Positions 1-16,300 of a stretch of 17,561 nt of DNA are shown one piece after another. A program made the position numbers and the translations under genes. Source of the DNA: an uncultured Clostridia bacterium (GTDB lineage Bacteria; Bacillota_A; Clostridia; Christensenellales; CAG-138). The notes below the pieces were generated by a model that saw only the letters and a program-made list of their open reading frames with translations, had not been told where the DNA came from and did not search any database. The stretch's first letter is position 1, and each line of letters begins with the position of its first letter. Location of the stretch: NCBI GenBank assembly GCA_947302865.1, contig CAMYWS010000008.1, positions 1 to 17,561 of the forward strand, given 5' to 3'.

Positions 1-900
1 CAGTGCGACCTCTACGGTATGTTCGGTCTGAACGACAACCTCGAGCACCGCATCATCATCGACGGCAAGGTGACCTACACCGTGCAGGATCCGCGCTTCA
101 AGGAAGCGACCAACTTCCTCGCAAACTGGGTCAGCAAAAACCTGATCGACAAGGTCTCCTTTGAGCTTTCGCAGGATAACTTCCTTGCGAACGGCAAAGG
201 TCTCGAAACCTACGGCGCATTCTACTGGTGGGAGAGCGAGACGGTTGTTTCGAACCCCGAGAACTACATCGTCTGCAACCCGCTGATCGGACCGAACGGC
301 GATCAGACGGTCTGCATCTCGAACAATCCGGAAGTCGGTGCGGGCGAAGTCGTCATCTTTTCGGATTGCCCGAACGTCGAAGTCCTGCTTGCGTACTTCG
401 ATCGCTACTATGATCCGGTCGTCTCCGCACAGATCAACTACGGTCCGATCGGTATCGTCTATGAGGAACAGCGCGATGAAAAGGGCATGCTCGTTCAGAA
501 GCCGGTTCCGGAAGGCATGACGACCGACGAACTGCGTCTGCAGAACGCGCCGCTGGGCATCATCTACCTCGGCGAGTATGCGTGGAACAACGTCGTCAAC
601 ATGGAGCCGCGCGCAAAGCTGCGTCTCGAGCGCCTGACGGCATTCGCAACGCCGTTCATGCCGAAAAATGTGCGCCCGTGCCCGAACCTGCAGTTCACGC
701 TCGACGAGCTCAATACGCTCTCGAACTATGAGACCAACCTGAACGACTACATCCGCACCAACCTGATCAAATGGCTGATGGGCGGCGGCGTCAGCGACGC
801 ACAGTGGGATGCGTTCCAGAAGGATCTTTCCGGCAAGTGCAACATTGCGGCGCTTCAGAAGGTCTATCAGGATGCGTATGACCGTTATCTGAATCAGTAA
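1..900 (+). CDS. ABC transporter sugar-binding protein, 3' part (LplA/YtcQ-like)
   Basis: The frame is open from base 1, so the gene begins upstream; 299 codons are visible and the stop is TAA at 898-900. The visible part lacks the signal peptide and N-lobe. It resembles the C-terminal half of large family-1 extracellular solute-binding proteins of the LplA/YtcQ/YesO kind: a segment like LLAYFDRYYDP followed by NYGPIGIVYE (the typical 'last residues of the chain, then YG.EG' pattern), and a final helix ending QKVYQDAYDRYLNQ, which is typical of the family end. Such proteins are lipid-anchored outside the membrane and deliver oligosaccharides to LplB/YtcP-type permeases, which would be expected upstream of the window. 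The neighbouring GH32 and fructokinase genes suggest fructo-oligosaccharide as ligand; that is inference from context, not from the binding site. It probably shares a transcript with the next gene, which starts 17 bases after the stop. Confidence 0.85.
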   Translation, partial: QCDLYGMFGLNDNLEHRIIIDGKVTYTVQDPRFKEATNFLANWVSKNLIDKVSFELSQDNFLANGKGLETYGAFYWWESETVVSNPENYIVCNPLIGPNGDQTVCISNNPEVGAGEVVIFSDCPNVEVLLAYFDRYYDPVVSAQINYGPIGIVYEEQRDEKGMLVQKPVPEGMTTDELRLQNAPLGIIYLGEYAWNNVVNMEPRAKLRLERLTAFATPFMPKNVRPCPNLQFTLDELNTLSNYETNLNDYIRTNLIKWLMGGGVSDAQWDAFQKDLSGKCNIAALQKVYQDAYDRYLNQ

Positions 901-903
901 TTC

Positions 904-910
904 AGGAGGA
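904..910 (+). promoter_or_regulatory. Ribosome binding site for the 602-aa lipoprotein, beside a stop-codon hairpin
   Basis: AGGAGGA lies 7 bases before the ATG at 918. Directly upstream, CTGAAT (889-894) and ATTCAG (900-905) can pair into a 6-bp stem whose loop and closing base contain the TAA stop of the sugar-binding protein gene. The stem touches only the first two bases of the ribosome binding site. Ribosomes terminating on the upstream gene would open it, so weak translational coupling is possible. Confidence 0.55.
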
Positions 911-917
911 ACGTACT

Positions 918-2726
918 ATGAAAAAACTGTTGGCAATACTTCTGTCCCTTGTCATGATCGCAGGGCTTATTGCATGCGGCGGCGAAACGCCGGACAAGCC
1001 CGCGGCAGACGGCGGCAGCAAGCCCGAGATCACGGGCGTGCATGACATGACCGTGGAAGCGGGACATGAGATCGACGTGCTCGAAGGCGTATCCGCGGGC
1101 GATCTGACCTCCATGATCACGATCGAATCTTCTCCCGCGCTGTCCTTCAAGGGCGGCAAAGCAACCCCGGAAACCGCCGGCAACTATGAGCTGGTCTATT
1201 CCGTCACCGACAACAGCGGCAATACCGCTGAAGCATATGCGACGCTGACCGTCACCAAGAAGACCGGGGAAGCGGTCCTTCTGAAGGACTTTGACTTCAG
1301 CACCATCGAAGCGACCGACGCGCACGGCTGGGAAGCTGTGGTTGACGGCGCGGAAGCGACCGGTGCTCTGAAAGACGGCGCGTACGTCATCGACATCGTG
1401 AACCCCGGTGAGGGCGACGATGATGTCCGCTTCGTCAAGACCCTCCCCGTGAAGGCGGGTGCGGATTATAAGATCAAGATCTGGGCAAAGTCCACGGCGC
1501 CCACGTTTGCGCACTTCATTCCGAAGAAGGCGGATGTGGAAGACTGGGCTACCTTCGGCGGCGAAGTCTGGAACGCACGTCTGGATGAGAAGATCACCTG
1601 CATCGAATCCAACTTCACGCCTGCGGAAGCCGGCAACGCGGAACTCCGTCTCCACCTCGGCAAGATCACGCCGGACCCGAACAACCCCGCAGACACCACG
1701 CCGGAGAACTTCACGGTGACGATCGACAAGGTCGAGATCTATGAGAGCGTCGGCGCAGAGGTTCTGGAACCGCTGTACACCGCTGACTTTGCAGACGGCG
1801 GCGCAACCATAGAAGCAGGCGACGGCGCGGCGGCAAGCGTTGCGTTTGAAGACGGCGCGGCTGTGTTTACGATCGAGAACTACCCGACCGAGGGCGGCGT
1901 ATGGAGCATTAAGGCAAACCTCGAACTCCCGGGCGTCACCATCGAGCAGGACACGATGTACAACTACAGCTTCACGATCGCAGCGGAGAATGCGCAGGGC
2001 GGCGAAGCGCTGACCGAAAGCGCGACGCTGTATCACGAAGCGCGCGCGAACTTCAACGGGCTTGACGTCGGCGCAGGCGAGGAAAAGACGATCTCCGTGC
2101 AGTTTACTGCGGAAGCGAACGTTACCGATCCGGTCATCCGTATGCAGATCGGCAACCCCTCCGACGGCGTAACTTCCAACAAGCTCACGATCAAGAACTT
2201 TGTGTTCAACAAGGTCGGCGGCGACAAGGAGACGATCAAGACGATCGAAGACTTCGCACCGCTCGGCATGCGTGTTGACAGCGTCGACAAGGATAAGTAT
2301 CCGTGGGAGACCTTCAACGGCACCGATGAGGACAACGAACGCGGCGTCGGCACGATCTGGACCGCGGACGGTAGTCTGTTCTACCGCATCGACGACGGCG
2401 GTACGGTCGACTGGCACAACAAGCTGATCTGTAAGCTCACGCTGCCTGCGGACAGCTACTTCATCGTCGAGATTACGGCAAAGGCAACGAAGAACGTGAG
2501 CTGCGGCTTCTTCCTGAACCCGCAGGGCGGCTGGGATCCGCGCGTAAGTGAGGGCATCGACTTCACGACCGAGGAGCAGACCTTCACGTTTGAAACCAAC
2601 GACACATTCATCATGGATATGCCGTGCGAACTTCTGTTCCAGTTCGGTTCCGAAGCAACCGCGGCGCTCGGTGACGTCACCATCGAGTTTACCAGCGTCA
2701 AGATCTACCAGAAAGCCGTTCAGTAA
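918..2726 (+). CDS. Modular surface lipoprotein: Ig-like plus three carbohydrate-binding-like modules
   Basis: This 602-residue protein begins with a lipoprotein signal peptide (MKKLLAILLSLVMIAG, lipobox LIAC with Cys20). Residues about 35-118 look like a bacterial Ig-like (DUF5011/HYR type) domain: 'MTVEAGHEIDVLEGV...ETAGNYELVYSVTDNSGN'. Three beta-rich segments follow at about 120-280, 283-435 and 438-602. Each has the layout of CBM4/9/22-like sandwiches: a basic-aromatic edge strand, 'AGADYKIKIWAKS' or similar, then 'ELRLHLG' and a closing 'VTIDKVEIYE'-type strand. No catalytic motif is visible. The same architecture recurs in the next gene. Sitting between a sugar-binding protein and a GH32 lipoprotein, it is probably a surface-anchored glycan-capture protein. 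Carbohydrate binding itself is inference; it could be structural or an adhesin. The start is supported by AGGAGGA 7 bases upstream. Confidence 0.8.
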   Translation: MKKLLAILLSLVMIAGLIACGGETPDKPAADGGSKPEITGVHDMTVEAGHEIDVLEGVSAGDLTSMITIESSPALSFKGGKATPETAGNYELVYSVTDNSGNTAEAYATLTVTKKTGEAVLLKDFDFSTIEATDAHGWEAVVDGAEATGALKDGAYVIDIVNPGEGDDDVRFVKTLPVKAGADYKIKIWAKSTAPTFAHFIPKKADVEDWATFGGEVWNARLDEKITCIESNFTPAEAGNAELRLHLGKITPDPNNPADTTPENFTVTIDKVEIYESVGAEVLEPLYTADFADGGATIEAGDGAAASVAFEDGAAVFTIENYPTEGGVWSIKANLELPGVTIEQDTMYNYSFTIAAENAQGGEALTESATLYHEARANFNGLDVGAGEEKTISVQFTAEANVTDPVIRMQIGNPSDGVTSNKLTIKNFVFNKVGGDKETIKTIEDFAPLGMRVDSVDKDKYPWETFNGTDEDNERGVGTIWTADGSLFYRIDDGGTVDWHNKLICKLTLPADSYFIVEITAKATKNVSCGFFLNPQGGWDPRVSEGIDFTTEEQTFTFETNDTFIMDMPCELLFQFGSEATAALGDVTIEFTSVKIYQKAVQ

Positions 2727-2740
2727 GAACGCATAACCCG

Positions 2741-2767
2741 AAGGGGGATGGAAAACCCGTCCCCCTT
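2741..2767 (+). terminator. Intergenic hairpin, partial terminator or 3'-end stabiliser
   Basis: AAGGGGGATGG (2741-2751) pairs with CCGTCCCCCTT (2757-2767) around the loop AAAAC, giving an 11-bp stem with one G-U pair. The following bases (TCTCACATTATTTT) are only moderately T-rich, so it may be a leaky terminator or an mRNA-stabilising stem rather than a full stop. It lies 15 bases after the stop of the 602-residue lipoprotein gene and 33 bases before the next ATG. It would favour the upstream genes over the very large one downstream. Confidence 0.6.
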
Positions 2768-2800
2768 CTCACATTATTTTCAGCATCAGGGGGGTCGGAA

Positions 2801-5800
2801 ATGAAACGCATAAAGATGCTGCTCGCGTGCTTACTGGCTCTGTTGTTCGTATGCGCGGGCTGCGGCAGGACAGCGCCCGCAGCGAATCAAAGCATAACGA
2901 CCGACGGAAAGCCAGTGCGCTATCTGCAGAACGATATCCATTTTGATACGAAGGAACAGACCGTCTCCGAGGGAGAACTGTTCCGTGTGCAGTTTGAAGG
3001 CGACGCCGTTGCGGGAACTGCCGGGGTGGTTGACGGAAAATACCGTGTCACCGCGACAAAAACCGACGGAGAGGCATGGCATATCAAACTCGAATCCAAC
3101 TATCCTACGGTCCCCGGAAACGATTACAGAATTACATACACCTTTATTTCCGACGTTGCCGGACGCGTAAAGTTCGGCGACGTGCAGGAGTTCCCGATCA
3201 AGGCGGGTCAGAACGAGGTCACGGGAGTCGTCACCGCAAAGAACGGTACGACTTATCTGGACTTCCAGCTCGGTATGCTCGATCCGTTTACGATCGATTT
3301 TGAGAAGATCACGGTCGCAGAGTTTGCGGACGAAGCGACCTTTATCAGTATCCTTCCTTCCGCCGTCCCGTTCGAATCGGAACAGGCGGTCTATGAACAG
3401 CACGACGACGGTTTTGAGCAGACCCTCGAGCGCGCTGCGGACGGCGTAACAGCGAACGTCGCAAACGCGCCGGCAAACGGCGACGTGTGGAATTCCAAGC
3501 TGTTCATCCGTACCGGCGCTGTTCCCGAGCCCGGCAAGCATTATCTGATCAGCGCGGACATTGCCGCGGAGAAGGAGATGGATTTCGAGATCTGTCTGAA
3601 CAACGGCGACGAAGAAAAGGGCTACGGCGCGCTGTACGGTCAGCGCCTTACCGAAACGCCCGCGACGTTCGTACAGACGGTCTCTATTCCGAAGACGGGC
3701 TTTGACGCCAAGGAGGTCGTTTTGCAGCTCATGCTCGGCAAGAGCGCTGCGGGCAACCGCATCACGGTGAAAAATGTCAACGTCGAGGAGATCAACGACT
3801 CCTATCGCGAACTGCTCCCGGCGGATTTTGCGATGGACAAATCCATCGCTGTCGGTACCGCAACCCGGCAGGTGCCGGACGGCTATAAAGAGATCCCTCT
3901 GAACGGGTTCTCCTTTACCGGAACGGATACGACTTTTGAGGGACATGACGACGGCTATGTGATCGAGATGAACGAAAGCGCGGACGGCGTCGATATGAAG
4001 ATCGTCAAAGCACCCGAAAACGCGGACGATCGCGGCGTCTGGAAAGCAAGGCTGTTCGTCAATACCGGCGTGGAACCGGAGGCGGGCAAGATCTATCGTG
4101 TTTCATACGATCTGACGCCGACGGCGGACCAGTCGGAATACGAGGTCTGCTTTGACGGCGACGAAGAGAAAGCGTACGGCGCGCTTTACGGGCGTCCCTT
4201 GACCGCGGGAACGGCAGACCATGTGGAATACACGTTCTCTGCGGCGGAACCCAAGGGCGTTCTGAAGCTGAAATTCCAGCTCGGTAAGACGAACGGCGCG
4301 GAAGGCAACACGTTTGCGCTTCGCAACTTCAAGTTTGAAGAGCTGACGACAGAGTTCAAGGACATTCTTCCGGCAGAGTTCGCGTATCCCGAGGGAAGCG
4401 GCGACACGACGGTCAACAATTCCTTCGACTTGGAAACCAACAACGGGACGGCTGCCGCGCTCACCGGCGACGGATCGAGCGCGACCGCAACGGTGACGAC
4501 CCCGGGCGACGACTGGCATATCAAGCTCTACGCAAAGCCCGGACTGGATCTGGAAGCGAACGAGACCTATACGATCACCATGGACGTGACCGGCGCATCC
4601 GGATGCACCGCATGCTATAAGAACGTCGCGACCGGCGCAGAGGACGGCTTCGGAACGGAAGCGATCGGCTCCGGGACGGTCACGCATACCGTGACCCCGA
4701 CCGAAGGCGGACGGCTTGAGATCCTGCTGAAGATCGGAAATGTTCCCGCAGGAACGGCTGTCATGGTCAAAAACATTCACATCACGAAAACCACGACGGA
4801 TTATATCCCGATGGAACTGTCGGGCTTCGGCTATCCCGTTACCACGGGAGGCGGCACCGAAACGGTTCCCGCAGGCTATGTCGCACAGCCGCTTTCCGTA
4901 TCGGCAAACGCGGTAGCGTGGGATGAATCCGAGGCGTCCGCATCTGCTTCGGGCAGCTCGGCGACGCTGCGAGTGACCAAGGCACGCACCTCCGGCGGTA
5001 TGTGGAGTGTGCGGCTCGAGGTCAACACCGGTGTTGCGCTTGAGAAGGACGCGCAGTATCAGGTCAGCGGCACGCTGACAAGCGAAAAGGGAAATATGCC
5101 CTTTGAGGTGCTTTACAGCAACGGAAGCGGCACCGATGAAGGTCCGCACAATCCGGGCGGACAGGGCTATGCGGAAGGAAGCTGGGGACTCAGAGTGGAC
5201 AACGACGGAGGTTCCGCAAGCTTCAGCAAGACTTTCACGGTCCCGGAGCGTTCGGAGTATCGTCCCCTCGTTCTTCGCGTACAGGTTGGCGACACACCCG
5301 CGCCGAACACGATCACCGTCAGCAACATTCAGGTAAAGAAGTGGGTTCCCGAACACGAAGAAACCACGGAACCTTCTACGGAAAACCGTTCCTTTGATCT
5401 GGAGGCGAACAGCGGCGCGGAAGCAGCGCTGACCGGCGACGGCTCAAGCGCGACGGCAACGGTTACAACGCCCGGAGCGGATTGGAACGTGAAGCTCTAC
5501 GCGAAGCCGAACGTGACGCTTGAGACGGGGAAAACCTATCGCATCAGCATGAACGTAAGCGGCGCTTCCGGCTGCACGGCGTGCTACAAGAATCTGGCGA
5601 ACGGCAACGAGGAAGGCTTCGGAACGGAAAAGATCGGAAACGGCACGGTTACGCATATCGTGACGCCGGCCGAGGACGGAGTGCTTGAGCTCATGCTCAA
5701 GATCGGCAACGTGTCTGCCGGTACTGAAGTCACGGTCAGCGGCATTCAGATCGCGGAGTTTGCCGCCGGCGAACTTGACGTGACGCCCGATTCGTTTGCG

Positions 5801-7144
5801 TACCCCGTGACGACGCCGGGCAGCGTGGCGTACCGTTCCTTTGATCTGGAGACCAACATGGGCGCGGCCGCGACGCTGACCGGAGACGGCAGCAGCGCGG
5901 TCACGACGGTCACGGCTCCCGGCGACGACTGGCATATCAAACTGTACGCGAAGCCCGGTGTGGAGCTTAAGGCAGGGGAAACGTACCGCATCAGCATGGA
6001 TGTGACAGGGGCGGACGGCTGCACGGCATGTTTTAAGAACACGGCGACCGGCGCGGAGGACGGCTTCGGAACGGAAGCGATCGGATCCGGCACGGTGACG
6101 CATACCGTGACGCCGACGGAAGACGGTACGATGGAGATCCTTCTGAAGCTCGGTACCGTCCCGGCAGGCGGAGTCGTTACCGTCAAGAACGTCAAACTCG
6201 AACAGAGCGTTGCGGGCGAAGCGACGAACGTGATCGACGATCTGCAATTCGACAGCGAAGGCTATATCAACGACGCGGCCGACGCGGGCTATGTCACGGA
6301 AATGACGCAGAGCGCGGATTCCGTCGTCTACCGCATCGTGTCCGCACCGGAGGAGCGCAATCCGTGGAATGTGAAGCTGTTTGTCAAGACCGGCTTTACG
6401 CCCGAGAAGAACAAGGGATACCGCATCAGCTTCGACATCGCATCCGAAAAGAAGCAGGATGTGCTGGAGGTCTTCTATGACGGCAATTCCGAAGCATGCT
6501 ACGGACAGCTGTTCGGACAGTCCCTGTCGGGCGGGAAAAAGACCGTTTCGTATACGATGAACGGCGGAGAAAGCAAGGGCGAGCTGGTCATCCAGATCCG
6601 CCTCGGAAAAACGGACGGCACGGACGGCAATGCCTATACCGTGTCCAACGTGAAGATCGAAGAAGTGAAATTCAAGACCGAACAGGTCGATCTGACACAG
6701 CAGACGGTCACCTCGTTTATCCATAACGAATATCAGGCAACGCTCGACAGGACGGCCGAAAACGCGGCGATGACGCTGTCGTCGACGCCTGAAAATGCGG
6801 AAGCATGGAAGACCAAGCTGTTTGTCCACACCGGCGCGAAGTTTCAGGCGGGCGGCAAGTATCGCGTCCGCTTCGACGTGAACGCAGAAAAAGAGACCGG
6901 CTATGAGGTCTGTTTCAACCACGGAAATGAGGAAAAAGGTCTCGGCGCGATGTACGGACTGACGGCGGGACCCAGGACACAAACGGTAACATACACCGTG
7001 TACGCGACGCGCGATATCGACCTTGTCATTCAGCTGTCGCTCGGCAACTGCGCCGCGCCGAATACGGTGACGATAAGCAATGTACATGTTGAGGAAGCGG
7101 GAGAACTGATCCCCGTATCCGAAACAGTATACACGTTCCACTGA
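2801..7144 (+). CDS. Giant surface lipoprotein with about nine tandem carbohydrate-binding-like modules
   Basis: This 1447-residue protein has a lipoprotein-type signal (MKRIKMLLACLLALLFVCAG, then Cys; the -3 residue of the lipobox is itself Cys, which is unusual). The rest is almost wholly tandem beta-rich modules of about 120-190 residues, at roughly 45-180, 182-333, 334-518, 519-667, 667-860, 861-1009, 1010-1139, 1140-1296 and 1297-1447. All nine carry a W-x-x-[KR]-L motif (AWHIKL, VWNSKL, VWKARL, DWHIKL, MWSVRL, DWNVKL, DWHIKL, PWNVKL, AWKTKL), then a 'G..Y.I..D' strand, an 'L.LG' strand and a closing '[VI]xN[VI]' strand, as in CBM4/9-like sandwiches. One class (modules 2, 3, 8, 9) has an E..CF..G.EE..YG.LYG-like stretch; another (4, 6, 7) has GCTAC and GFGTE. 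No enzyme motif is visible. The likely role is a long extracellular stalk that binds fructan or another glycan beside the anchored GH32; the ligand is inferred from context only. The start has a GGGGGG-type purine run 5 bases upstream. Confidence 0.85.
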   Translation: MKRIKMLLACLLALLFVCAGCGRTAPAANQSITTDGKPVRYLQNDIHFDTKEQTVSEGELFRVQFEGDAVAGTAGVVDGKYRVTATKTDGEAWHIKLESNYPTVPGNDYRITYTFISDVAGRVKFGDVQEFPIKAGQNEVTGVVTAKNGTTYLDFQLGMLDPFTIDFEKITVAEFADEATFISILPSAVPFESEQAVYEQHDDGFEQTLERAADGVTANVANAPANGDVWNSKLFIRTGAVPEPGKHYLISADIAAEKEMDFEICLNNGDEEKGYGALYGQRLTETPATFVQTVSIPKTGFDAKEVVLQLMLGKSAAGNRITVKNVNVEEINDSYRELLPADFAMDKSIAVGTATRQVPDGYKEIPLNGFSFTGTDTTFEGHDDGYVIEMNESADGVDMKIVKAPENADDRGVWKARLFVNTGVEPEAGKIYRVSYDLTPTADQSEYEVCFDGDEEKAYGALYGRPLTAGTADHVEYTFSAAEPKGVLKLKFQLGKTNGAEGNTFALRNFKFEELTTEFKDILPAEFAYPEGSGDTTVNNSFDLETNNGTAAALTGDGSSATATVTTPGDDWHIKLYAKPGLDLEANETYTITMDVTGASGCTACYKNVATGAEDGFGTEAIGSGTVTHTVTPTEGGRLEILLKIGNVPAGTAVMVKNIHITKTTTDYIPMELSGFGYPVTTGGGTETVPAGYVAQPLSVSANAVAWDESEASASASGSSATLRVTKARTSGGMWSVRLEVNTGVALEKDAQYQVSGTLTSEKGNMPFEVLYSNGSGTDEGPHNPGGQGYAEGSWGLRVDNDGGSASFSKTFTVPERSEYRPLVLRVQVGDTPAPNTITVSNIQVKKWVPEHEETTEPSTENRSFDLEANSGAEAALTGDGSSATATVTTPGADWNVKLYAKPNVTLETGKTYRISMNVSGASGCTACYKNLANGNEEGFGTEKIGNGTVTHIVTPAEDGVLELMLKIGNVSAGTEVTVSGIQIAEFAAGELDVTPDSFAYPVTTPGSVAYRSFDLETNMGAAATLTGDGSSAVTTVTAPGDDWHIKLYAKPGVELKAGETYRISMDVTGADGCTACFKNTATGAEDGFGTEAIGSGTVTHTVTPTEDGTMEILLKLGTVPAGGVVTVKNVKLEQSVAGEATNVIDDLQFDSEGYINDAADAGYVTEMTQSADSVVYRIVSAPEERNPWNVKLFVKTGFTPEKNKGYRISFDIASEKKQDVLEVFYDGNSEACYGQLFGQSLSGGKKTVSYTMNGGESKGELVIQIRLGKTDGTDGNAYTVSNVKIEEVKFKTEQVDLTQQTVTSFIHNEYQATLDRTAENAAMTLSSTPENAEAWKTKLFVHTGAKFQAGGKYRVRFDVNAEKETGYEVCFNHGNEEKGLGAMYGLTAGPRTQTVTYTVYATRDIDLVIQLSLGNCAAPNTVTISNVHVEEAGELIPVSETVYTFH
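4421..4783 (+). repeat. 121-codon module repeat, copy 1 (CTAC class)
   Basis: First of three gap-free 363-base in-frame repeats in the giant lipoprotein gene. The encoded module runs from SFDLETNNGT through DWHIKLYAKP and GCTACYKN to a final NIHI. Two cysteines (residues 602 and 605) are spaced C-x-x-C. By hand count it matches copy 3 at about 95 of 121 residues with no insertion or deletion. Confidence 0.9.
5390..5752 (+). repeat. 121-codon module repeat, copy 2 (CTAC class)
   Basis: Second copy, again exactly 363 bases, from SFDLEANSGA through DWNVKLYAKP and GCTACYKN (Cys925, Cys928) to GIQI. It is separated from copy 1 by an unrelated divergent module (about residues 667-860) and lies directly before copy 3. 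Confidence 0.9.
5837..6199 (+). repeat. 121-codon module repeat, copy 3 (CTAC class)
   Basis: Third copy, 363 bases, from SFDLETNMGA through DWHIKLYAKP and GCTACFKN (Cys1074, Cys1077) to NVKL. It starts 447 bases after copy 2. Copies 1 and 3 share long nucleotide stretches around the GFGTEAIGSGTVTH segment, suggesting fairly recent duplication or gene conversion within the gene. Confidence 0.9.
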
Positions 7145-7159
7145 AATCCAAAACCAAAT

Positions 7160-7185
7160 GGGAAGGGCATGCAGATGCCCTTCCC
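7160..7185 (+). promoter_or_regulatory. Perfect 11-bp hairpin before the GH32 lipoprotein gene
   Basis: GGGAAGGGCAT (7160-7170) pairs perfectly with ATGCCCTTCCC (7175-7185) around the loop GCAG. No T-run follows; instead the ribosome binding site CAGGAG (7189-7194) of the next gene comes at once. It is therefore more likely an mRNA 3'-end stabiliser, processing site or translation-modulating element than an intrinsic terminator. It sits in the 56-base gap between the giant lipoprotein and the GH32 lipoprotein. Confidence 0.55.
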
Positions 7186-7200
7186 GGACAGGAGATTATC

Positions 7201-8739
7201 ATGAATAAAGCTAAATTCCGAATGACTGTTGCTCTGCTTCTTTGCGCTGTGATGCTGTTCGCATGCAGCGGACAGAGCGCAAACGCAGCGAAGACGGCGG
7301 AGGACGGAGAGGCGTTTGTGTTCCCCGAGGGCGAAACGGACTTCGCTTCACTTCGCACACCGGGTTCGCAGGAAGCCGCTTACAACTACCAGAGTTTCTT
7401 CCTGCCCGCCGAAGACAACGGCGTTCAGCCGTATGTCGGCGACACCATGCCGTACTATGAGAACGGCACCTACTACATCTACTACCTGAAAGAGGGCGGC
7501 GATTCCTATAACCACTCGGTCTATCTGACGACGACCAACGACTTCGTGACCTATACGGAACAGGATGCGGTTGTGCTCGAAGCGTCGCGCAGCGGCGGTC
7601 AGGACGGCTGGATCGGCACGGGCTCGGTCGTCAAAGTGAATGACATTTATTACTTCTTCTATACCGGGCACGCAGGCTCGGATTCCTACGAGTACAAAGA
7701 AAAGATCATGGTTGCCAAGAGCAGCGATCTGACCTCGTTCGAGAAGGTAGAGGGCTGGGAAATCGTTCCGCCGAACGACCTCGGACAGAAAAACGACTTC
7801 CGCGATCCGCAGGGCTACTATGACGCGGAGACCGACACGATCACCCTGACTGTGACCGCGTCGCAGAGCAATAAAGCGCGCGTCATCAAGTACACACTTT
7901 CCGGAGACTTGGAGACCGTGACCTATGACGGTATCATTTTCACCGATCCGGAGACGTTCTGGAACCTCGAATGTACCGATACGTTCCGGATCGGAAACAA
8001 GTACTACCTGACCTATTCCGGCCAGGATGATACGCTTTGGTATGCGATGTCCGATACGCCGTACGGTCCGTATTCCGATCCGGTGCGTCTCGACGGCGAG
8101 CTGTTCTATGCCGCAAAGCACATTGAAGACGGTTCCAACACCTATATGGTCGGTTGGGCGCGCCGCTCCGAATCCGTTTCCTCCACACAGGAGGTCTCCG
8201 GCTGGGCGGGCAACCTTGCCGTGCAGAAGGTCGTACAGAATCCGGACGGCACGCTGACGCTTGCGCCTGTGGATGCGCTTGTCAACCAGTTCAAGAACCG
8301 CCGTGAGCTGTTGATCGACAGCATGACGGCAACGCTTTCGTCCGGCGCGGTTTACAGTTATACCGACCTTTGCACGGCATATGAAAGCTATCTGCTGACC
8401 GGCACGATCCGGTTTGAGAAGAACGGTACGTTCGGACTTGCGTTCGATTACAACGGCAGAACCGACAAATACAAGACGATCACGCTCGATCCCGCGGGAG
8501 ACAAGCTGTCGCTTGCGTTTAACGAGGGCGATACGCTGATCACCGAAACCGCCGCACCGATCGAACCGGGCAAGGACTACACGTTCACCTATGTGCAGGA
8601 GGGCTCCGTTGGGATCTTCTGCCTTGACGGTATTGCATCCCTGACCGTGCGTCTCTACGGCGTCTCCGGCAGACCGGTGCGCCTGTTCGTCGAGAATAAC
8701 ACTGTCACGATCTCGGATCTCAAACAGTACACCCGCTGA
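7201..8739 (+). CDS. Surface-anchored GH32-like (clan GH-J) fructan hydrolase, lipoprotein
   Basis: A 512-residue protein with a lipoprotein signal (lipobox LFAC, Cys22). A five-bladed propeller of clan GH-J is indicated by the RDP motif (Arg201-Asp202-Pro203 in FRDPQGYY, transition-state stabiliser) and the EC motif (Glu257-Cys258 in LECTDTF, the acid/base). The usual N-terminal WMNDPNG nucleophile motif is replaced by VGDTMPYYENG, whose Asp81 is the likely nucleophile, followed by TTTNDFVTYTE where family members have a 'DLxHWE'-like strand. Residues about 380-512 form the C-terminal beta-sandwich. It should release fructose or fructo-oligosaccharides from fructan outside the membrane; endo versus exo action and inulin versus levan cannot be told from sequence. 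A GH43 enzyme is less likely because RDP plus EC is a GH32/GH68 signature. The start has CAGGAG 6 bases upstream. Confidence 0.8.
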   Translation: MNKAKFRMTVALLLCAVMLFACSGQSANAAKTAEDGEAFVFPEGETDFASLRTPGSQEAAYNYQSFFLPAEDNGVQPYVGDTMPYYENGTYYIYYLKEGGDSYNHSVYLTTTNDFVTYTEQDAVVLEASRSGGQDGWIGTGSVVKVNDIYYFFYTGHAGSDSYEYKEKIMVAKSSDLTSFEKVEGWEIVPPNDLGQKNDFRDPQGYYDAETDTITLTVTASQSNKARVIKYTLSGDLETVTYDGIIFTDPETFWNLECTDTFRIGNKYYLTYSGQDDTLWYAMSDTPYGPYSDPVRLDGELFYAAKHIEDGSNTYMVGWARRSESVSSTQEVSGWAGNLAVQKVVQNPDGTLTLAPVDALVNQFKNRRELLIDSMTATLSSGAVYSYTDLCTAYESYLLTGTIRFEKNGTFGLAFDYNGRTDKYKTITLDPAGDKLSLAFNEGDTLITETAAPIEPGKDYTFTYVQEGSVGIFCLDGIASLTVRLYGVSGRPVRLFVENNTVTISDLKQYTR

Positions 8740-8752
8740 CGAAAGGAGCGCT

Positions 8753-9394
8753 ATGCGCAAACTGCTTGACATCAACAATCCGATCATGCGGACGCTGATC
8801 ACGATCTTCGATCTGATCGCGCTGAGCATCTTCTGGACGGTGTTTTCGCTGCCGGTCGTCACGATGGGCGCGGCGTCTGCCGCCTTGTATCACGCGGTCT
8901 ATCAGCACGTCAGAAAGGGCGACGACTACCTTTGGAACAGTTTCTGGTCGGCGTTCAAGTCCAACTTCAAGCGCTCTACGCTCGCTTGGCTCGTTCCGCT
9001 CGGTATCCTGATCGTACTGACGTTTGACGCGATCGTATTCCGCAGCATCTATTTGCAGGGCAAGCCGTTCGGCTGGGTTTACTATGCTGTTCTGGTCATC
9101 ATCACGTTCGTGCTGACATGGACGATCTATCTTGCGGCCTACGGTGCGCGGTTCAACGGAACGGTGAAGGAAGTGCTGAAATACAGCTGGATCCTGTTCC
9201 GCGCGCATCCGCTTCTGCTGCTGTGCATCATGGTGCTGCTGGTCGGTGGGATCGCGCTTGCGCTGACGATTCCGCCGCTGATGATCATTATCCCCGCAGG
9301 GGTATATTGGGGCTCGACCTTCCCGATGGAAGCGATATTCAAAAAGCATATGCGCCCGGAGGATCTTGAACGGGTGCAAAGAGGGGAAGACTGA
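8753..9394 (+). CDS. YesL-like (DUF624) membrane protein
   Basis: A 213-residue integral membrane protein with hydrophobic segments at about 13-45, 75-97, 105-128 and 152-190. The start (LLDINNPIMRTLITIFDLIALSIFW), the 'LPVVTMGAASAALYHAV' stretch and the 'SFWSAFKSNFKRST' loop are characteristic of the YesL/DUF624 family. These small proteins are regularly encoded next to LplABC/YtcPQ-type sugar ABC transporters in Firmicutes; their biochemical role is not established, and an accessory role in uptake is assumed. The gene starts 13 bases after the GH32 lipoprotein stop (GAAAGGAG upstream) and its TGA overlaps the ATG of the next gene by one base (ATGA), so the three genes are likely co-translated. 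Confidence 0.85.
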   Translation: MRKLLDINNPIMRTLITIFDLIALSIFWTVFSLPVVTMGAASAALYHAVYQHVRKGDDYLWNSFWSAFKSNFKRSTLAWLVPLGILIVLTFDAIVFRSIYLQGKPFGWVYYAVLVIITFVLTWTIYLAAYGARFNGTVKEVLKYSWILFRAHPLLLLCIMVLLVGGIALALTIPPLMIIIPAGVYWGSTFPMEAIFKKHMRPEDLERVQRGED

Positions 9395-10896
9395 TGAAGC
9401 AAAAACTGTTGTTTGCAAGAGCATACGAAAAGGAAGCAGCAAAGCTGATTCCCGATACAGCGCGTCCGCTGTTTCACCTGACGCCGTATACCGGCTGGAT
9501 GAACGATCCGAACGGATTTTCCTTTTATCAGGGCAAGTTCCATCTGTTCTATCAGTATTATCCATACGATACGGCTTGGAACGACATGCACTGGGGGCAT
9601 GCCGTAAGTACCGATTTACTGCATTGGGAGTATCTGCCCGCAGTCATGGCGCCGGACAAACCGTACGACGGCTTCGGCTGTTTTTCGGGCAGCGCGATCG
9701 AGCTGGATGACGGCAGACAGCTGCTGCTCTATACCGGCGTATGCAAAGAGGGCGGCGAGAGTGACAAGGACATTCAGACGCAGTGCGTTGCGATCGGCGA
9801 CGGTCTGGATTACAAAAAAATCCCGCAGAACCCGGTCTTGGACGAACATGATCTTCCGGACGGCTGTGAGAAGTACAACTTCCGCGATCCGAGGATCTGG
9901 CGCGATCCGGACGGGACGTTCTTCTGCATCGTCGGCTCCTGTGACGAAAACGGCTTAGGAAAGCTTCTGCGTTATCGCAGTGCGGACGGGATCAAATGGG
10001 CGTATGACGGCATGCTGATCGAAAACGACGGACGTCTCGGCTTGATGTGGGAATGCCCGGACTACTTCGATCTCGACGGCAAGCAGGTGTTATTGGTCAG
10101 CCCGCAGGATATGCTGCCGGAGGGCTTTGAATACCACAACGGCAACGGCACGGTATGTCTGATCGGTCATTTTGATCCCGAAAGCCGCAGGTTCATTCCG
10201 GAAAGCGATCATGCGGTCGACTACGGCATCGACTTCTATGCGCCGACAACGATCCTGATGCAGGACGGACGGCGCGTCATGATCGGCTGGATGCAGAATT
10301 GGGACACGACCAAGCTGACCGGCAGGAAGGATCGCAGATGGTTCGGACAGATGTCGCTTCCGCGCGAGATCTGCATCAAAAACGGGCGCCTGTATCAGCA
10401 GCCGCTCAGGGAACTGGAAAAGCTTCGCAGCGGCGGCGTGCATTACGAAAACGTCCGCATCGAGGATGAAAAGCGCCTGGACGGGATAACAGGGAGGACG
10501 GTCGATCTGACGATTACCGTGCGTCCCGCTCCCGGAGAACCGATGTATCACAACTTTGCCGTGCGGTTTATGCAGAACGAGCGGTTCTATACGGAACTCA
10601 CCTACCGTACACGCGAATCCATCCTGCGCATCGACCGCAAGTTCTCCGGTTCGCGGCGTGCATACATCCATCAGCGCCGCTGCCTCGTACCCAATCGGAA
10701 CGGAGAGATCAAGCTCCGGATCATTCTTGACCGTTTCAGTGCCGAAGTCTTTATCAACGACGGCGAACAGACCATGACAGCGACGATTCTGACGGAACTG
10801 TCCGCAACAGGCATCTCCTTTGTTTCGGACGGCGCTGTGCAGATCGACGTAACCAAATATGATCTTCTTCCGGAGGACGAACATGAAACGCTTTGA
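9394..10896 (+). CDS. Cytoplasmic GH32 beta-fructosidase (sucrose/fructo-oligosaccharide hydrolase)
   Basis: A 500-residue protein of normal length for ScrB/SacA-type GH32 enzymes, without signal peptide. All three catalytic motifs are intact: WMNDPNGF (nucleophile Asp38), FRDPRIW (Arg164-Asp165) and WECPDYF (acid/base Glu220). GWMQNWDT and MSLPREI are also family hallmarks. The C-terminal sandwich covers about 340-500. Because the operon has an ABC-type binding protein and no PTS gene in view, the substrate is probably unphosphorylated imported sucrose or fructo-oligosaccharide rather than sucrose 6-phosphate, although the sequence class is that of sucrose-6-phosphate hydrolases. It yields fructose for the next gene's kinase. 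Its ATG shares one base with the YesL-like stop, and its 3' end overlaps the kinase start by 14 bases. Confidence 0.93.
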   Translation: MKQKLLFARAYEKEAAKLIPDTARPLFHLTPYTGWMNDPNGFSFYQGKFHLFYQYYPYDTAWNDMHWGHAVSTDLLHWEYLPAVMAPDKPYDGFGCFSGSAIELDDGRQLLLYTGVCKEGGESDKDIQTQCVAIGDGLDYKKIPQNPVLDEHDLPDGCEKYNFRDPRIWRDPDGTFFCIVGSCDENGLGKLLRYRSADGIKWAYDGMLIENDGRLGLMWECPDYFDLDGKQVLLVSPQDMLPEGFEYHNGNGTVCLIGHFDPESRRFIPESDHAVDYGIDFYAPTTILMQDGRRVMIGWMQNWDTTKLTGRKDRRWFGQMSLPREICIKNGRLYQQPLRELEKLRSGGVHYENVRIEDEKRLDGITGRTVDLTITVRPAPGEPMYHNFAVRFMQNERFYTELTYRTRESILRIDRKFSGSRRAYIHQRRCLVPNRNGEIKLRIILDRFSAEVFINDGEQTMTATILTELSATGISFVSDGAVQIDVTKYDLLPEDEHETL

Positions 10897-11839
10897 TGTT
10901 GTTGCGCTTGGAGAGTTGCTGATCGACTTTACCGAAACGGGGTTCAGCTCGCAGGGCAATCCGCTTTTGGAAGTCAACCCGGGAGGCGCGCCCTGTAACG
11001 TGCTTGCCATGCTTCAGAACCTCGACAGAAAAACCGCTTTCCTCGGTAAGGTCGGCAGGGACAGTTTCGGCAGCCTTCTTGCGGAAACGATCAAAACATG
11101 CGGGATCGAGACAAGCGGACTCATTCAGGATCCCGACGTGCATACCACATTGGCGTTTGTGCACACGCTGCCGGACGGCGACCGTGAATTCAGCTTTTAC
11201 AGAAAGCCGGGGGCGGACATCGCGTTTTCGAAGAGCGATCTCAGGGAAGAGCTGGTCGCGGATTGCCGGATCTTCCATTTCGGCTCGCTTTCGCTGACCG
11301 ACGAGCCATGCCGTACGGCGACGCAGACGGCGCTCAGCATTGCACAGAATGCGGGCGCGTTGATCTCGTTCGATCCAAACCTCAGAGAGCCGCTGTGGGA
11401 CAGCCTGAACAATGCGAAAATGCAGATTGCGTGGGGACTGAAACATAGCGACGTCGTGAAAATCGCCGACAATGAAATGACCTTTTTGACAGGCGAAACC
11501 GACTTTGAAAAGGGCGCGGCGATTCTTCGCGCGTGGTTCCCGAATATCCGGCTTCTGAATATCACGGCAGGTCCGGACGGCAGTCACAGCTTCTGCGGCA
11601 ATCTGCACGTCTTTGTTCCCGGATTCCGCGTACAAACGATCGAAACGACAGGCGCGGGGGATACCTTCTGCGCGTGCGTTCTGCATGACATTCTGAACAA
11701 CGGTCTGGAAAACCGAACCGAAGACAGTCTTGCAGCTATGCTGCGCTTTGCAAATGCCGCTGCTGCGATCATCACCACGCGGAAAGGCGCATTAAAATCC
11801 ATGCCGACGCTCACAGAGGTGCGGCAATTACTTTCATAG
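10883..11839 (+). CDS. PfkB-family fructokinase
   Basis: A 318-residue ribokinase-family sugar kinase. The N-terminal signature is NPGGAPCNV (residues 32-40) and the C-terminal signature ETTGAGDTF, with Asp260 as catalytic base; the first position of DTxGAGD is Glu here. The short start MKRFDVVALGELLIDF matches fructokinases of this family. An ATG eight codons upstream (10859) is open but lies deep inside the GH32 gene without a ribosome binding site, whereas GGAGGA at 10872-10877 is 5 bases before 10883, so the latter start is chosen. It phosphorylates fructose released by the preceding enzyme to fructose 6-phosphate for glycolysis. The 14-base overlap suggests translational coupling. It is the last gene before a strong terminator. 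Other PfkB substrates (2-keto-3-deoxygluconate, tagatose phosphate) are possible but fit the context less well. Confidence 0.9.
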   Translation: MKRFDVVALGELLIDFTETGFSSQGNPLLEVNPGGAPCNVLAMLQNLDRKTAFLGKVGRDSFGSLLAETIKTCGIETSGLIQDPDVHTTLAFVHTLPDGDREFSFYRKPGADIAFSKSDLREELVADCRIFHFGSLSLTDEPCRTATQTALSIAQNAGALISFDPNLREPLWDSLNNAKMQIAWGLKHSDVVKIADNEMTFLTGETDFEKGAAILRAWFPNIRLLNITAGPDGSHSFCGNLHVFVPGFRVQTIETTGAGDTFCACVLHDILNNGLENRTEDSLAAMLRFANAAAAIITTRKGALKSMPTLTEVRQLLS

Positions 11840-12325: not shown

Positions 12326-13144
12326 TTACCTGATCAGCCACGTCGCGCACTGATTGACCGGTTCGGGATCGTTCGTAAAGCCCATTGCGTGATACAGGGA
12401 GATCGCGGGGGCGTTGTCGACGTCGACGATCAGCATCATGTCCTTCGGACGGTTCGCTTCGATCGCCTTGTACAGGAGCTTTCGTCCCCAGCCCTTTCTC
12501 CGGCAGTCCTCTTTGACAAAAAAGTCGAACGGCTCGTTTTCCTCATTGTTTCTGGTCACGTCGATGTATCCGATGACGGTCCCGCCGTCCACGGCAAGGA
12601 AGACACGGAAGATGTCCTGCGCTTTCAGGATCCGTTCACCCGTCCAGTAGAGGTCCGTGGCGTGCAGGGCGACGTACTGATCCGCGTACGCGGGGGACAG
12701 CGGTTCGATCCCGGTCGTATCGACGGCGGGCGGTTCTTCGGTCAGGACCATCTTGAACTGCTCCGGATCGGCGGTCACACCGCGGCGGCGCAGCATGTCG
12801 AGGATTGCGGTATTCTTCGGGTTGAACACGAAGTCGACCTGATAGCCCGGATAATGCGCCGATAGCCAGTCGGCGATCTCTTCATAGGCGGCGGGGGAGC
12901 GCGAAAGCCCCACGAGCATCTCGATATACGACTCATCTTCCACGATCAGGAACACGAAAAGCCCCGTCATTTCCTCGTCGGAAAACACGCCCAGAGCAAT
13001 CTGATCCGGGCTTTTTACGGCACAATTCAGATTCTTCTCGATCTGCTCCGCGGTTTGGAGCATCGGCTCCAAAAAGGCGGGATCGCTGTTGATCCCGTTG
13101 ATGAAATCCCAATAGGGCTCGAATGTTGTAAGCTTCTGTATCAT
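12326..13144 (-). CDS. GNAT-family N-acetyltransferase, tandem-fold with degenerate N-half
   Basis: A 272-residue protein. The C-terminal half (about 140-272) is a standard GNAT domain: 'FLAVDGGTVIGYIDV' (beta strands), an acetyl-CoA loop RRKGWG (residues 215-220) within 'VKEDCRRKGWGRKLL', and the closing VDNAPAISLYHAMGF signature. The N-terminal half (about 1-130) keeps the GNAT outline ('LGVFSDEEMTGLFVF', 'NPKNTAILDMLRRRGV') but lacks the RxxGxG/A pyrophosphate loop, so it is probably a non-catalytic fold copy. The acceptor (a protein N-terminus, an antibiotic or a small amine) cannot be judged. The start at 13144 has GGAG 9 bases upstream. It is transcribed convergently to the fructan operon and divergently from the surface lipase-like gene; no functional link to either is evident. 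Confidence 0.88.
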   Translation of the reverse strand: MIQKLTTFEPYWDFINGINSDPAFLEPMLQTAEQIEKNLNCAVKSPDQIALGVFSDEEMTGLFVFLIVEDESYIEMLVGLSRSPAAYEEIADWLSAHYPGYQVDFVFNPKNTAILDMLRRRGVTADPEQFKMVLTEEPPAVDTTGIEPLSPAYADQYVALHATDLYWTGERILKAQDIFRVFLAVDGGTVIGYIDVTRNNEENEPFDFFVKEDCRRKGWGRKLLYKAIEANRPKDMMLIVDVDNAPAISLYHAMGFTNDPEPVNQCATWLIR

Positions 13145-13369: not shown

Positions 13370-16300
13370 ATGGCGAAAAGAAACAGACTGCTCTCCCTGC
13401 TCGTGGCGGCTTTGATGCTGCTTTCGACCGTGTTTGCCGGCGTCGCGCCCGCGTTCGCGGACGATGGTGACGAACCGACCGATCCCGTTATCGTGACGGA
13501 TCAGAAGAATGACGGCGGGGAGGATTCCGAACCGGCAGCGGACGAACCGGTAGAGGAGATCGATCCGGATCTCGACACCGACTTTGACGGCGTCCCGGAC
13601 ATTGATGAGATCACTGTGTTCGGCTCCGACCCGGAGAATTCCGACACCGACGGCGACGGTCTTTCCGATTACGATGAGCTGTACGTGTATTATACCGCGG
13701 CGGGCGATCCGGACAGCGACGTCGACGGGCTCTCCGACTATGATGAGATCTTCGTGTACGGCACCGATCCCTTGAAGGGCGACACCGATTCGGACGGCGT
13801 TTCGGACGGCGACGAGCTGTATTACGGCATCGATCCGCTGGATCAGGACGGTGACGGCGACGGTATCCCGGACGGCGACGAATATCTGCTCGGCACGGAT
13901 CCGCAGTCGTATGACGATCTTTCCGGCGTGTACCAATGGCTCGACGGCGACCTTATTGAGAGCGAGCTTCAAAACGGCAACGCGGCGGTCCCCGCGATCG
14001 AGGGCTTCGCGCCGTTCGTGCTGTTCCGCGAAGCGGTCGTGATGCATTACGGCGTGGAATCGTTCCTCAAAAATCCTGCTTTGATCGGAAAGCCGGTCGA
14101 GATCCGTATGCCGGAGGGCGGCGATCTCATGCTGACGTTCGCGGTTGACAGCGACGCAAAGGAGATCGCGATCTTCCGCATGAACGAGAACGGTACGGTC
14201 CGTCTCGATGCGGATCGGAACGGCAGCGCATACACTGTTGCGCTGACCGAAAACGGCGTGTATTACGCCGCGGACATGCACAAACTCAACGTGCTCCTGG
14301 GCTTTGAGGGTGCGGGCGTACAGAACGTTCCGGCAAACTCGTATCTTCTGGAAGACTTCCGTTACGTTACGCTGAACGCGCCTCTTTCGGCGGGCAGCGG
14401 CGTCGATACCGACGGCGACGGAATCCCGGACAGCGAGGAGATCGGCAACCGGTACGAGATCGACCTCGGTAACGGGTATACGGCAAATGTTTACGGTTAC
14501 GTGTCCGACCCGACGCTTGTTGACTCCGATTTCGACGGCATGCGGGACGGTCTTGACGAGCTGCCCAGAAGCAACAGCTTCTCCGGACAGTACAAGAGCG
14601 GCGACACATTCACGATCAACCTTTCGTATACCATGAACTATCAGAACTTCTTCGGTAACAACAAGGTATACAACGCGGAGATCGCGAGCTTCTCTGTATT
14701 GGCGGCGCAGCTGTGCTATGAAAACGAGGACAACGAAGTAACGTATACGCCGAACGAGACGCTCTATGACAGCGACGGCAGCACGATCACGACTGTGCGG
14801 CGCGTGGATTCGCTGATGCGCGCGCACGGCATGGAGAATGTGATCGACTATCAGCTGGAAAACGGCTATTTTCACAGCGACATCAGCCTCGGCGCGTATG
14901 CCGATGACAATATCACCGAGGTCTTCTTCGGACATCACAAGGAGACGATCGACGGTGAGGACTATGAGATCATCTCGGTCTTTGTGCGCGGCACGAACGG
15001 CACCGAAAAGGAATGGTGTTCGAACTTCGACGTCGGCGATTTGCACCGTTATCTGGACGAATTCGACTGCGTTGAGGGAAAACAGCCCCGTCAGCTGAAC
15101 GCGGACTGGAACCGCAAGTCGAACCACCGCGGCTTCGATATCTGCGCAACGCGCATCTATCGCGCGCTCGCGGCATATATGAATACGTTCGTCGATTCCG
15201 ACGCGACGCCTGTCTTCTGGCTGACCGGCCATTCCCGCGGCGCGGCGATCTCGAACATCATCAGCGCATCCTGCGTCGATGAGGGACATAAGGTCTTTGC
15301 CTACACTTACGCTTCCCCGAACACCACGGCGAACACAGAGGCGTCGGCGGAGAAGTACGACTGCATCTTCAACCTCGTCAACGGCGACGACTTCGTTCCG
15401 ATGCTGCCGATGCCCGAATGGGGATTCACCCGTTACGGCAGAACGGCGAAAAAGTATGCGTGTCTCGCAACCAATTCCGAGCGCAGCACGCTGCTGGGCA
15501 ACACGAGCTACAGCTACGCGTCCGACAGCAGTCTCGCCGAACTTGTAGGCAAGTTTGCCAATATGACGAAGAACAACAGCGGCGTGATCGAAGGGTGGCG
15601 CGATGTGTATGCGTATCATTGCTACGGCTCAAGCGGCATCGACCACGTTGAGGTGCATCTGCATGCAGGGGAGACCATCGGCGAATTCCGCTCCGGTTCC
15701 AGAAAGGACTATGGTACGGACAGCAACTGGAACGGCTACAACGAGCACACCAAGAAGTACAGCTACTGCGTCAAGGACAAGGACGGCGGCTTCTTAGGTC
15801 TCGGCAACAAGTGGTCCTGCTGCCAGACGCCGGCGTATGCGATGCAGCTGCTTGCGATCACGATGGGCAACCTCGGACTTTCCGCGGGCTGGAGCTTTTT
15901 GACCTCGTACGATCTCGCGGACCGCTTCGACTTCGGCAAGATGAGTCTGATCACAAATTATGCGACGAAGATCATTGACCCGCACTACATGGAGAACTAC
16001 TACCTGATCCAGTATCTCCTGCAGCGGGACAACGATCCGGAAACAGCGTTCAGCACGATCAATTCGCTCTACACGAATTCCGACCATCGCCCGGTGCACG
16101 AGCACACCTATGAGATCGTGGAGATGAGAAAAGCGCCTACCTGCACCGAACCCGGCGTTGCGCATGTGGTCTGCCATTGCAGCGAAATCAATTCCGCGTG
16201 GTATGACGACGAGATCAAAAACGCGCTGATCCCGGCGACCGGTCATGCCTGGGGCGAACCGACCTGGAACTGGACCGGAAGCGACGCGGACGGCTACACC

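Follow-up and report, generated by a model that had tools for sequence, protein, structure and literature searches.

Non-catalytic CBM4-type lipoproteins as candidate polymer binders of clostridial fructan-use operons

Genes and modules at the locus

The window, by which we mean the whole stretch of 17,561 nucleotides analysed here, contains the downstream portion of a fructan-use operon (Table 1). Two adjacent lipoprotein genes, p602 and p1447, lie between the gene for a FusA-like ABC solute-binding protein (SBP) and the gene for a BT1760-like GH32 lipoprotein (GH32lipo), which confirms the gene order described in the initial annotation. The three plus nine CBM4/9-like modules described there were borne out by Pfam, by sequence profiles and by the tested folds, and p602 was found to carry an Ig-like domain in addition. 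Chance or a gene-calling artefact is ruled out by many full-length homologues, and the long ORFs that run antisense to p602 and p1447 on the minus strand were treated as probable frame shadows. At gathering score, no Rfam family matched within the window.

Table 1. Features of the operon and their positions in the window
Feature	Position	Strand	Remarks
SBP, C-terminal part, FusA-like ABC solute-binding protein	1..900	+	299 aa, 99.7% identical to the full-length L015 copy
p602, lipoprotein with Ig-like domain and three CBM4-type modules	918..2726	+	
p602 Ig-like spacer domain	1005..1259	+	residues 30-114
p602 module a1	1260..1763	+	residues 115-282, CBM_4_9
p602 module a2	1764..2225	+	residues 283-436, CBM4-type sandwich
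p602 module a3	2226..2723	+	residues 437-602, without Pfam family, nearest by sequence is the CBM4 1gui
Intergenic RNA hairpin 3' of p602	2740..2768	+	position kept, compensatory changes; L015 sequence identical
p1447, lipoprotein with nine CBM4-like modules, accessory	2801..7144	+	
p1447 module b4	4403..4804	+	residues 535-668, sequence-profile match to BtSGBP-B
p1447 module b6	5363..5755	+	similar to b4 (b6 and b7, 66-79% identical)
p1447 module b7	5828..6196	+	similar to b4 (b6 and b7, 66-79% identical)
Intergenic RNA hairpin 3' of p1447	7159..7186	+	z -4.3
GH32lipo, GH32 lipoprotein	7201..8739	+	lipobox LFAC; nearest solved relative BT1760 endo-levanase
DUF624/YesL-type membrane protein	8753..9394	+	
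Cytoplasmic-type GH32 (GH32cyt)	9394..10896	+	ScrB family
PfkB-family sugar kinase	10859..11839	+	probable fructokinase

The CBM_4_9 family (PF02018, Pfam cut-off 25.9 bits) matched p602 at 32.3 bits and p1447 at 56 bits. Pfam also recognised the Ig-like domain of p602, which was present in all 32 homologues of the p602 alignment, CBM_4_9 being matched in 19 of them at E<=1e-3; among p1447 homologues, CBM_4_9 was found in 13 of 15. No NCBIfam family scored above its cut-off with either protein. A hidden enzyme in p602 or p1447 was rejected, since no enzyme family of Pfam or NCBIfam matched them or their homologues, in agreement with the earlier claim that enzyme motifs are absent. Structure prediction, which had been proposed as a check, gave CBM4-type sandwiches for the tested modules; in p1447 the prediction reached residue 860, and modules b1, b3 and b6-b9 are less covered by structure. 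The closest folds were those of beta-glucan and xylan CBM4/CBM22 modules, and p602 and p1447 both resemble BtSGBP-B, which ranks first or close to first in the profile and fold comparisons.

Modules a1, a2 and a3 of p602 are barely related to one another by profile (0-12%), and a3 reaches at most 66% by profile with the p1447 modules. Conservation is highest in a3, where 63 of 165 positions are kept at 95% or more; the corresponding figures are 38 of 168 for a1, 32 of 154 for a2 and 24 of 85 for the Ig domain. Eleven aromatic positions of a3, including W463, W481, W499 and W539, are conserved at this level (at least 95%), and its model consists of strands with a single helix of at least four residues (579-584). 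Because it is the most conserved module, a3 is the likeliest principal binding module, and its conservation suits one fixed ligand.

By our own lipobox pattern the window p602 is a lipoprotein, and a lipobox was found in 52 of 78 full-length p602 proteins (77 from the loci described below and the window copy). Among the 26 proteins without it, 21 have an AxA-type signal and five are of other kinds, two of these having an N-terminal hydrophobic stretch from which the cleavage motif is absent. Lipid anchoring is thus the usual state of p602 but dispensable, and this points to retention by a partner or in some other way in the lipobox-less branch. In GH32lipo, a lipobox-like cysteine is kept in most N-termini as judged by eye. 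A number of p602 proteins without a lipobox, for example L024, L026, L042 and L053, have an ordinary signal peptide, and the GH32 adjoining them keeps its lipobox-like N-terminus.

Conservation of the operon and its components

A contig scan with the p602 alignment, using patterns from the most conserved stretch of p602, gave 97 relatives, and the best 80 were kept; the denominators below count loci in which the contig is long enough or the hit is present. The locus L015 is 97% identical to the window in p602, 95% in p1447 and 99.7% in the SBP, and its gene order is a LacI-type regulator on the opposite strand, two ABC permeases, SBP, p602, p1447, GH32lipo, YesL, GH32cyt and PfkB. A gram-positive polysaccharide utilisation locus (gpPUL) combines a degrading enzyme, a transporter and a regulator in one locus; the window does not extend to the regulator and the permeases, and L015 contains all three. 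Among the best 80 of the 97 loci, the SBP gene precedes p602 in 78 of 79 testable cases, with a median gap of 35 bases, and GH32lipo follows in 74 of 78. The permeases LplC (64/65) and LplB (53/54), as well as GH32cyt (69/70), PfkB (55/60) and LacI (47/48), are similarly frequent in this set; LplB and LplC are labels given here, Pfam assigning BPD_transp_1 to both.

GH32lipo was missed in L004 and L011, where the contig ends in the p1447-like gene, in L018, with 1.2 kb after p602, and in L063. The last is a true exception, with a p602-like protein, a 1762-aa p1447-like protein and an upstream GH32 (29% identical to GH32lipo), and ABC genes were unmatched within 10 kb of its p602-like gene. Eight loci (L017, L027, L032, L045, L064, L070, L071 and L077) have a GH32lipo of about 570-585 aa with an extra N-terminal stretch, presumably resembling InlB-type repeats. 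A further p602 match (L114, G605:C23) lies inside a 972-codon open frame, perhaps through an N-terminal extension or upstream read-in.

The best 80 of the 97 loci come from Clostridia, Oscillospiraceae, Lachnospiraceae, Ruminococcaceae and Christensenella, many of them from rumen or gut, and from Treponema. The five Treponema loci (L049, L060, L069, L072 and L080), which include T. bryantii XBD1002, place the p602 fructan operon in a diderm spirochaete, and this occurrence suggests that the operon moved between phyla. In the plasmid collection, p602 was unmatched.

A survey of genomes for co-occurrence with GH32 and LplABC genes had also been proposed, and in the 80 loci and two genome samples the homologues do sit with glycan-use genes. 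In these searches few candidates were scored per genome. Among 297 genomes of one order, p602 (E<=1e-41) occurred in 10, and the identical 10 had a GH32lipo at least 50% identical; among 391 genomes of one class, both were found, by the same thresholds, in the same four. Two positive genomes are shared between the samples, giving 12 distinct genomes, and in all 12 the close p602 homologue is linked to fructan genes. Any p602-profile hit was obtained in 47 of the 297 genomes, of which 10 are strong, 10 belong to a distant class and 27 have hits confined to profile positions 1-131, the signal and Ig part.

Neighbourhoods were read in all ten distant-class genomes and in three of the ten strong ones. 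The distant p602-like proteins are 23-30% identical where aligned, and SBP and GH32 genes lie alongside in 10 of 10 (nine full loci and one short contig, L102). The same transporter genes stay with the p602-like gene in these loci, and the gene order differs. In L094 the p602-like gene is ORF 7129-9027 on the minus strand. Upstream of the permeases in L091 lies a further GH32 protein of 1008 aa (361-3387), which matches CBM_X2 weakly.

The p1447-like proteins are rarer than p602, being present in nine of the 80 p602 loci (best 80 of 97 relatives), three of the nine only weakly alike, and in 1 of 297, 5 of 140 and 5 of 101 genomes of our samples, the last two of which overlap. These amount to seven distinct genomes; four are genomes of p602 loci that were known before or served as centres of the samples, and the other three (G679, G710 and G750) turned up without a p602. 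In 7 of 7 genomes the p1447-like gene has a GH32lipo relative (29-98% identical) no more than about 5 kb away, and p602 was unmatched in the 30-38 kb covered in G679, G710 and G750. The p1447-like gene is fragmented in G679 and G710. In G750 (L112-L113, G750:C6), the p1447-like open frame has 2914 codons and lies directly upstream of the GH32lipo relative. Thus p602 is the core, and p1447, being rarer and standing beside GH32 without a matched p602 in three genomes, is an optional accessory that is able to stand alone beside GH32.

In 62 of the 79 loci, the 60 bases past the p602 stop codon fold much more stably than 60 shuffled versions per locus (z<=-2). Applied to the stretches behind other genes, the same test was positive in 3 of 76 loci for the SBP, 9 of 71 for GH32lipo and 3 of 63 for GH32cyt; these controls often extend into the next gene because the gaps are short. 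In an alignment of 24 hairpins, selected out of 49 distinct sequences, 7 of the 12 pairs have changed on both sides with pairing kept. Below the threshold are 17 loci, among them all five of Treponema, L073 and L074, as well as L008 and L010, in which the hairpin is visible and z falls just short. A terminator was rejected as the usual case, since at least five T in the next eight bases follow only 15 of 61 hairpins. The malE-malF hairpin separates the levels of genes in one transcript, and by analogy we take the p602 hairpin to be punctuation through which binding-protein genes and enzyme genes may be expressed at different levels from a shared transcript.

Probable substrate and relation to known systems

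Fructan is the probable substrate of the operon, judging from its FusA-like SBP, BT1760-like GH32lipo, ScrB-type GH32 and PfkB kinase. The SBP was unmatched by any Pfam or NCBIfam family, and the nearest solved relative of the full-length L015 copy is FusA of S. pneumoniae (5g5y/5g5z, E 4e-63; next family 3e-15), which is characterised in the available text as a fructooligosaccharide binder (PMC5287374). The best solved match of GH32lipo is BT1760, a Bacteroides endo-levanase (E 3e-29), other GH32 enzymes scoring 3e-10 or worse. Its catalytic Asp, RDP Asp and EC Glu are D81, D202 and E257; across 69 sequences, these residues and also W254 and W335 are each at least 97% conserved. The two tryptophans align with W217 and W318 of BT1760, which have roles in glycan sites together with Y70 and F243, according to the accessible part of the report (PMC7618045); at the positions of Y70 and F243, GH32lipo has N104 and T278, and these two residues are not kept.

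A point against this substrate is that GD-type GH32 enzymes (cluster 4) of butyrate producers are described, in the excerpted text, as inactive on FOS, inulin and levan, and two of three adjoin ABC transporters (PMC7833758). The GD motif is present in GH32lipo and also in BT1760, which is active, so the motif alone is not decisive. GH32lipo is described here as BT1760-like with putative endo-levanase activity, and this kinship makes levan or graminan a more likely fructan than inulin.

BtSGBP-B (7kwb/7kwc), the SusE-positioned protein of a Bacteroides laminarin locus, likewise consists of non-catalytic CBM4-like sandwiches and has an endo-hydrolase in its locus; it binds laminarin and yeast beta-glucan, as its source states in the text available (PMC7157763). 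It belongs to a Bacteroidota outer membrane with SusCD, whereas p602 loci have an ABC importer and fructan genes. The B. thetaiotaomicron levan utilisome (BT1763-1760) shares with them a non-catalytic binding lipoprotein numbered next to a surface GH32, but it has SusCD, while the SusD family (PF07980) was found in none of six p602 carrier genomes, in a search for SusD only whose positive control responded. In BT1761, the levan SGBP, the C-terminal levan-binding domain is a beta-sheet decorated with helices in the part of the publication at hand (PMC7618045), which by that description differs from the strands and one helix of the modelled a3, so p602 is not a BT1761 homologue there. The BT1761 chain was absent from the matches of a p602 profile search of solved structures, an absence that by itself does not exclude homology.

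The window p602 is, as SusE and SusF are, a non-catalytic multi-domain lipoprotein with a spacer Ig domain, and in place of SusC/SusD partners the p602 loci have ABC permeases and the SBP. Because SusD is absent from 6 of 6 carriers and the BT1761 binding domain differs, p602 is not a member of the SusE/SusF family, and by analogy it would work like an SGBP. The SusE/SusF-like counterpart in a monoderm that the initial annotation envisaged is supported as an analogy, in which the principal counterpart is p602 and p1447 is a variable addition. FusABC of Streptococcus pneumoniae shares its SBP family with the p602 operon, and we know of no p602-like partner of that importer. The inuABCDEF system of Lactobacillus delbrueckii is also a gram-positive ABC fructan uptake system, which, as far as the text available describes, imports inulin polymer through an annotated oligopeptide ABC transporter from a cluster without degradation genes (PMC8346543).

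Gram-positive fructan loci, CBM4, FusA and BT1760 are already known. No description of p602 or p1447 was found in the open-licence PMC literature, in searches partly aimed at other questions, and within that literature a conserved non-catalytic binder at the core of a fructan locus of the ABC type is new as far as seen, and so are the giant protein that can accompany it and the hairpin.

Possible function and competing readings

Taken together, p602 and p1447 probably hold fructan polymer for the anchored GH32 and the ABC importer, with fructan binding by the modules, surface exposure and hand-over between the proteins as presumed parts of this reading. The lipid would hold p602 to the membrane, the Ig domain would lift it and the CBM4-type modules would grip the polymer, to which p1447, where present, would add a long multivalent array. 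Polymer would thereby be kept beside the lipid-anchored BT1760-like GH32, which would cut it; the FusA-like SBP and the permeases would import the oligosaccharides, and GH32cyt and PfkB would complete the breakdown in the cytoplasm. The ABC importer would stand in for SusCD, and p602 and p1447 would act like SusE-positioned glycan binders. Points that weigh against this reading are the different fold described for the BT1761 binding domain, the weak mutual relation of the p602 modules, the 26 p602 proteins without a lipobox, the inactive GD-type enzymes, the loss of Y70 and F243 in GH32lipo, the glucan and xylan ligands of most described CBM4 modules, and the locus L063 with its lack of matched ABC genes. 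A stronger version, which we regard as doubtful, is a single-membrane 'utilisome' with SBP, permeases, p602, p1447 and GH32 in a standing complex that would hold a fructan chain, cut it and take up the fragments, with new fructan-binding CBM4-type families (a3 first) and with a hairpin that sets the binder above the enzyme.

A somewhat doubtful alternative is an ordinary gram-positive polysaccharide locus in which CBMs that other systems carry on the enzyme are encoded by separate genes and the mechanism is not SGBP-like. Fructan gpPULs with LacI, ABC, GH32 and fructokinase genes have been described, such as Eub-3/Eub-4 of Roseburia and E. rectale, which share these components with the p602 operon; the available text names no p602 homologue, and hypothetical genes are drawn in its figure (PMC5320581). 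The beta-glucan enzyme BpGH16MLG of Blautia producta carries four CBM4 fused to the GH16 enzyme, whereas the p602 modules form a separate gene; the excerpt adds that gram-positive CBM4 modules may serve where Bacteroides uses SGBPs (PMC10318527). However, a separate non-catalytic gene is kept as the core across the clostridial and Treponema loci found, and the p602 family, like SGBPs, has an Ig-like spacer of its own, present in all 32 aligned homologues. We consider it unlikely that p602 is instead a docking subunit of the ABC importer, which would pass GH32-released oligosaccharides to the SBP and bind partners as much as sugar. In its favour, p602 comes directly after the SBP gene in 78 of 79 cases (best 80 of 97 loci), the hairpin after p602 (62/79) and not after the SBP (3/76) groups p602 with the transporter genes, the third of p602 proteins without a lipobox would depend on a partner for retention at the cell, and the distant p602-like genes keep the same transporter genes despite their altered order. 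Nevertheless, three CBM4-type modules and the BtSGBP-B match indicate glycan binding, and in G750 an ABC/GH32 locus has the giant p1447-like gene beside GH32lipo with p602 unmatched in 38 kb.

The modules may also bind something other than fructan, such as a cell-wall polymer or plant glucan or xylan, and merely tether the enzyme set to the wall or to plant fragments, which seems quite improbable. The nearest folds are beta-glucan and xylan CBM4/CBM22, and CBM4 modules described so far are mostly beta-glucan and xylan binders, not fructan binders. The known fructan-binding families are CBM38 and CBM66, both absent from the module match lists examined, which excludes nothing. Beta-glucans are the CBM4 ligands named in the portion of the Blautia study available (PMC10318527). 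On the other side are the linkage to fructan genes, seen in all 12 genomes that carry a close homologue and in the ten that carry a distant one, and the conservation of a3, highest among the modules with 63 of its 165 positions at least 95% conserved, which suits a single fixed ligand.

How polymer is held at the gram-positive surface before import is little understood, as stated for mixed-linkage glucan in the accessible text (PMC10318527), and a conserved non-catalytic binder together with a Bacteroides-type GH32 lipoprotein in a fructan locus makes this question of surface capture testable. If polymer holding by p602 and p1447 is true, fructan binders would join the CBM4-type fold, and p602 would be a marker gene by which rumen and gut clostridia and treponemes that use polymer could be told from those that use FOS.

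Beyond the operon, the window contains a GNAT acetyltransferase gene (12326-13144, minus strand) between the fructan genes and a lipase gene. The latter (13370-17560) is truncated by the window end and encodes a large protein that combines TSP3 repeats with a class 3 lipase domain.
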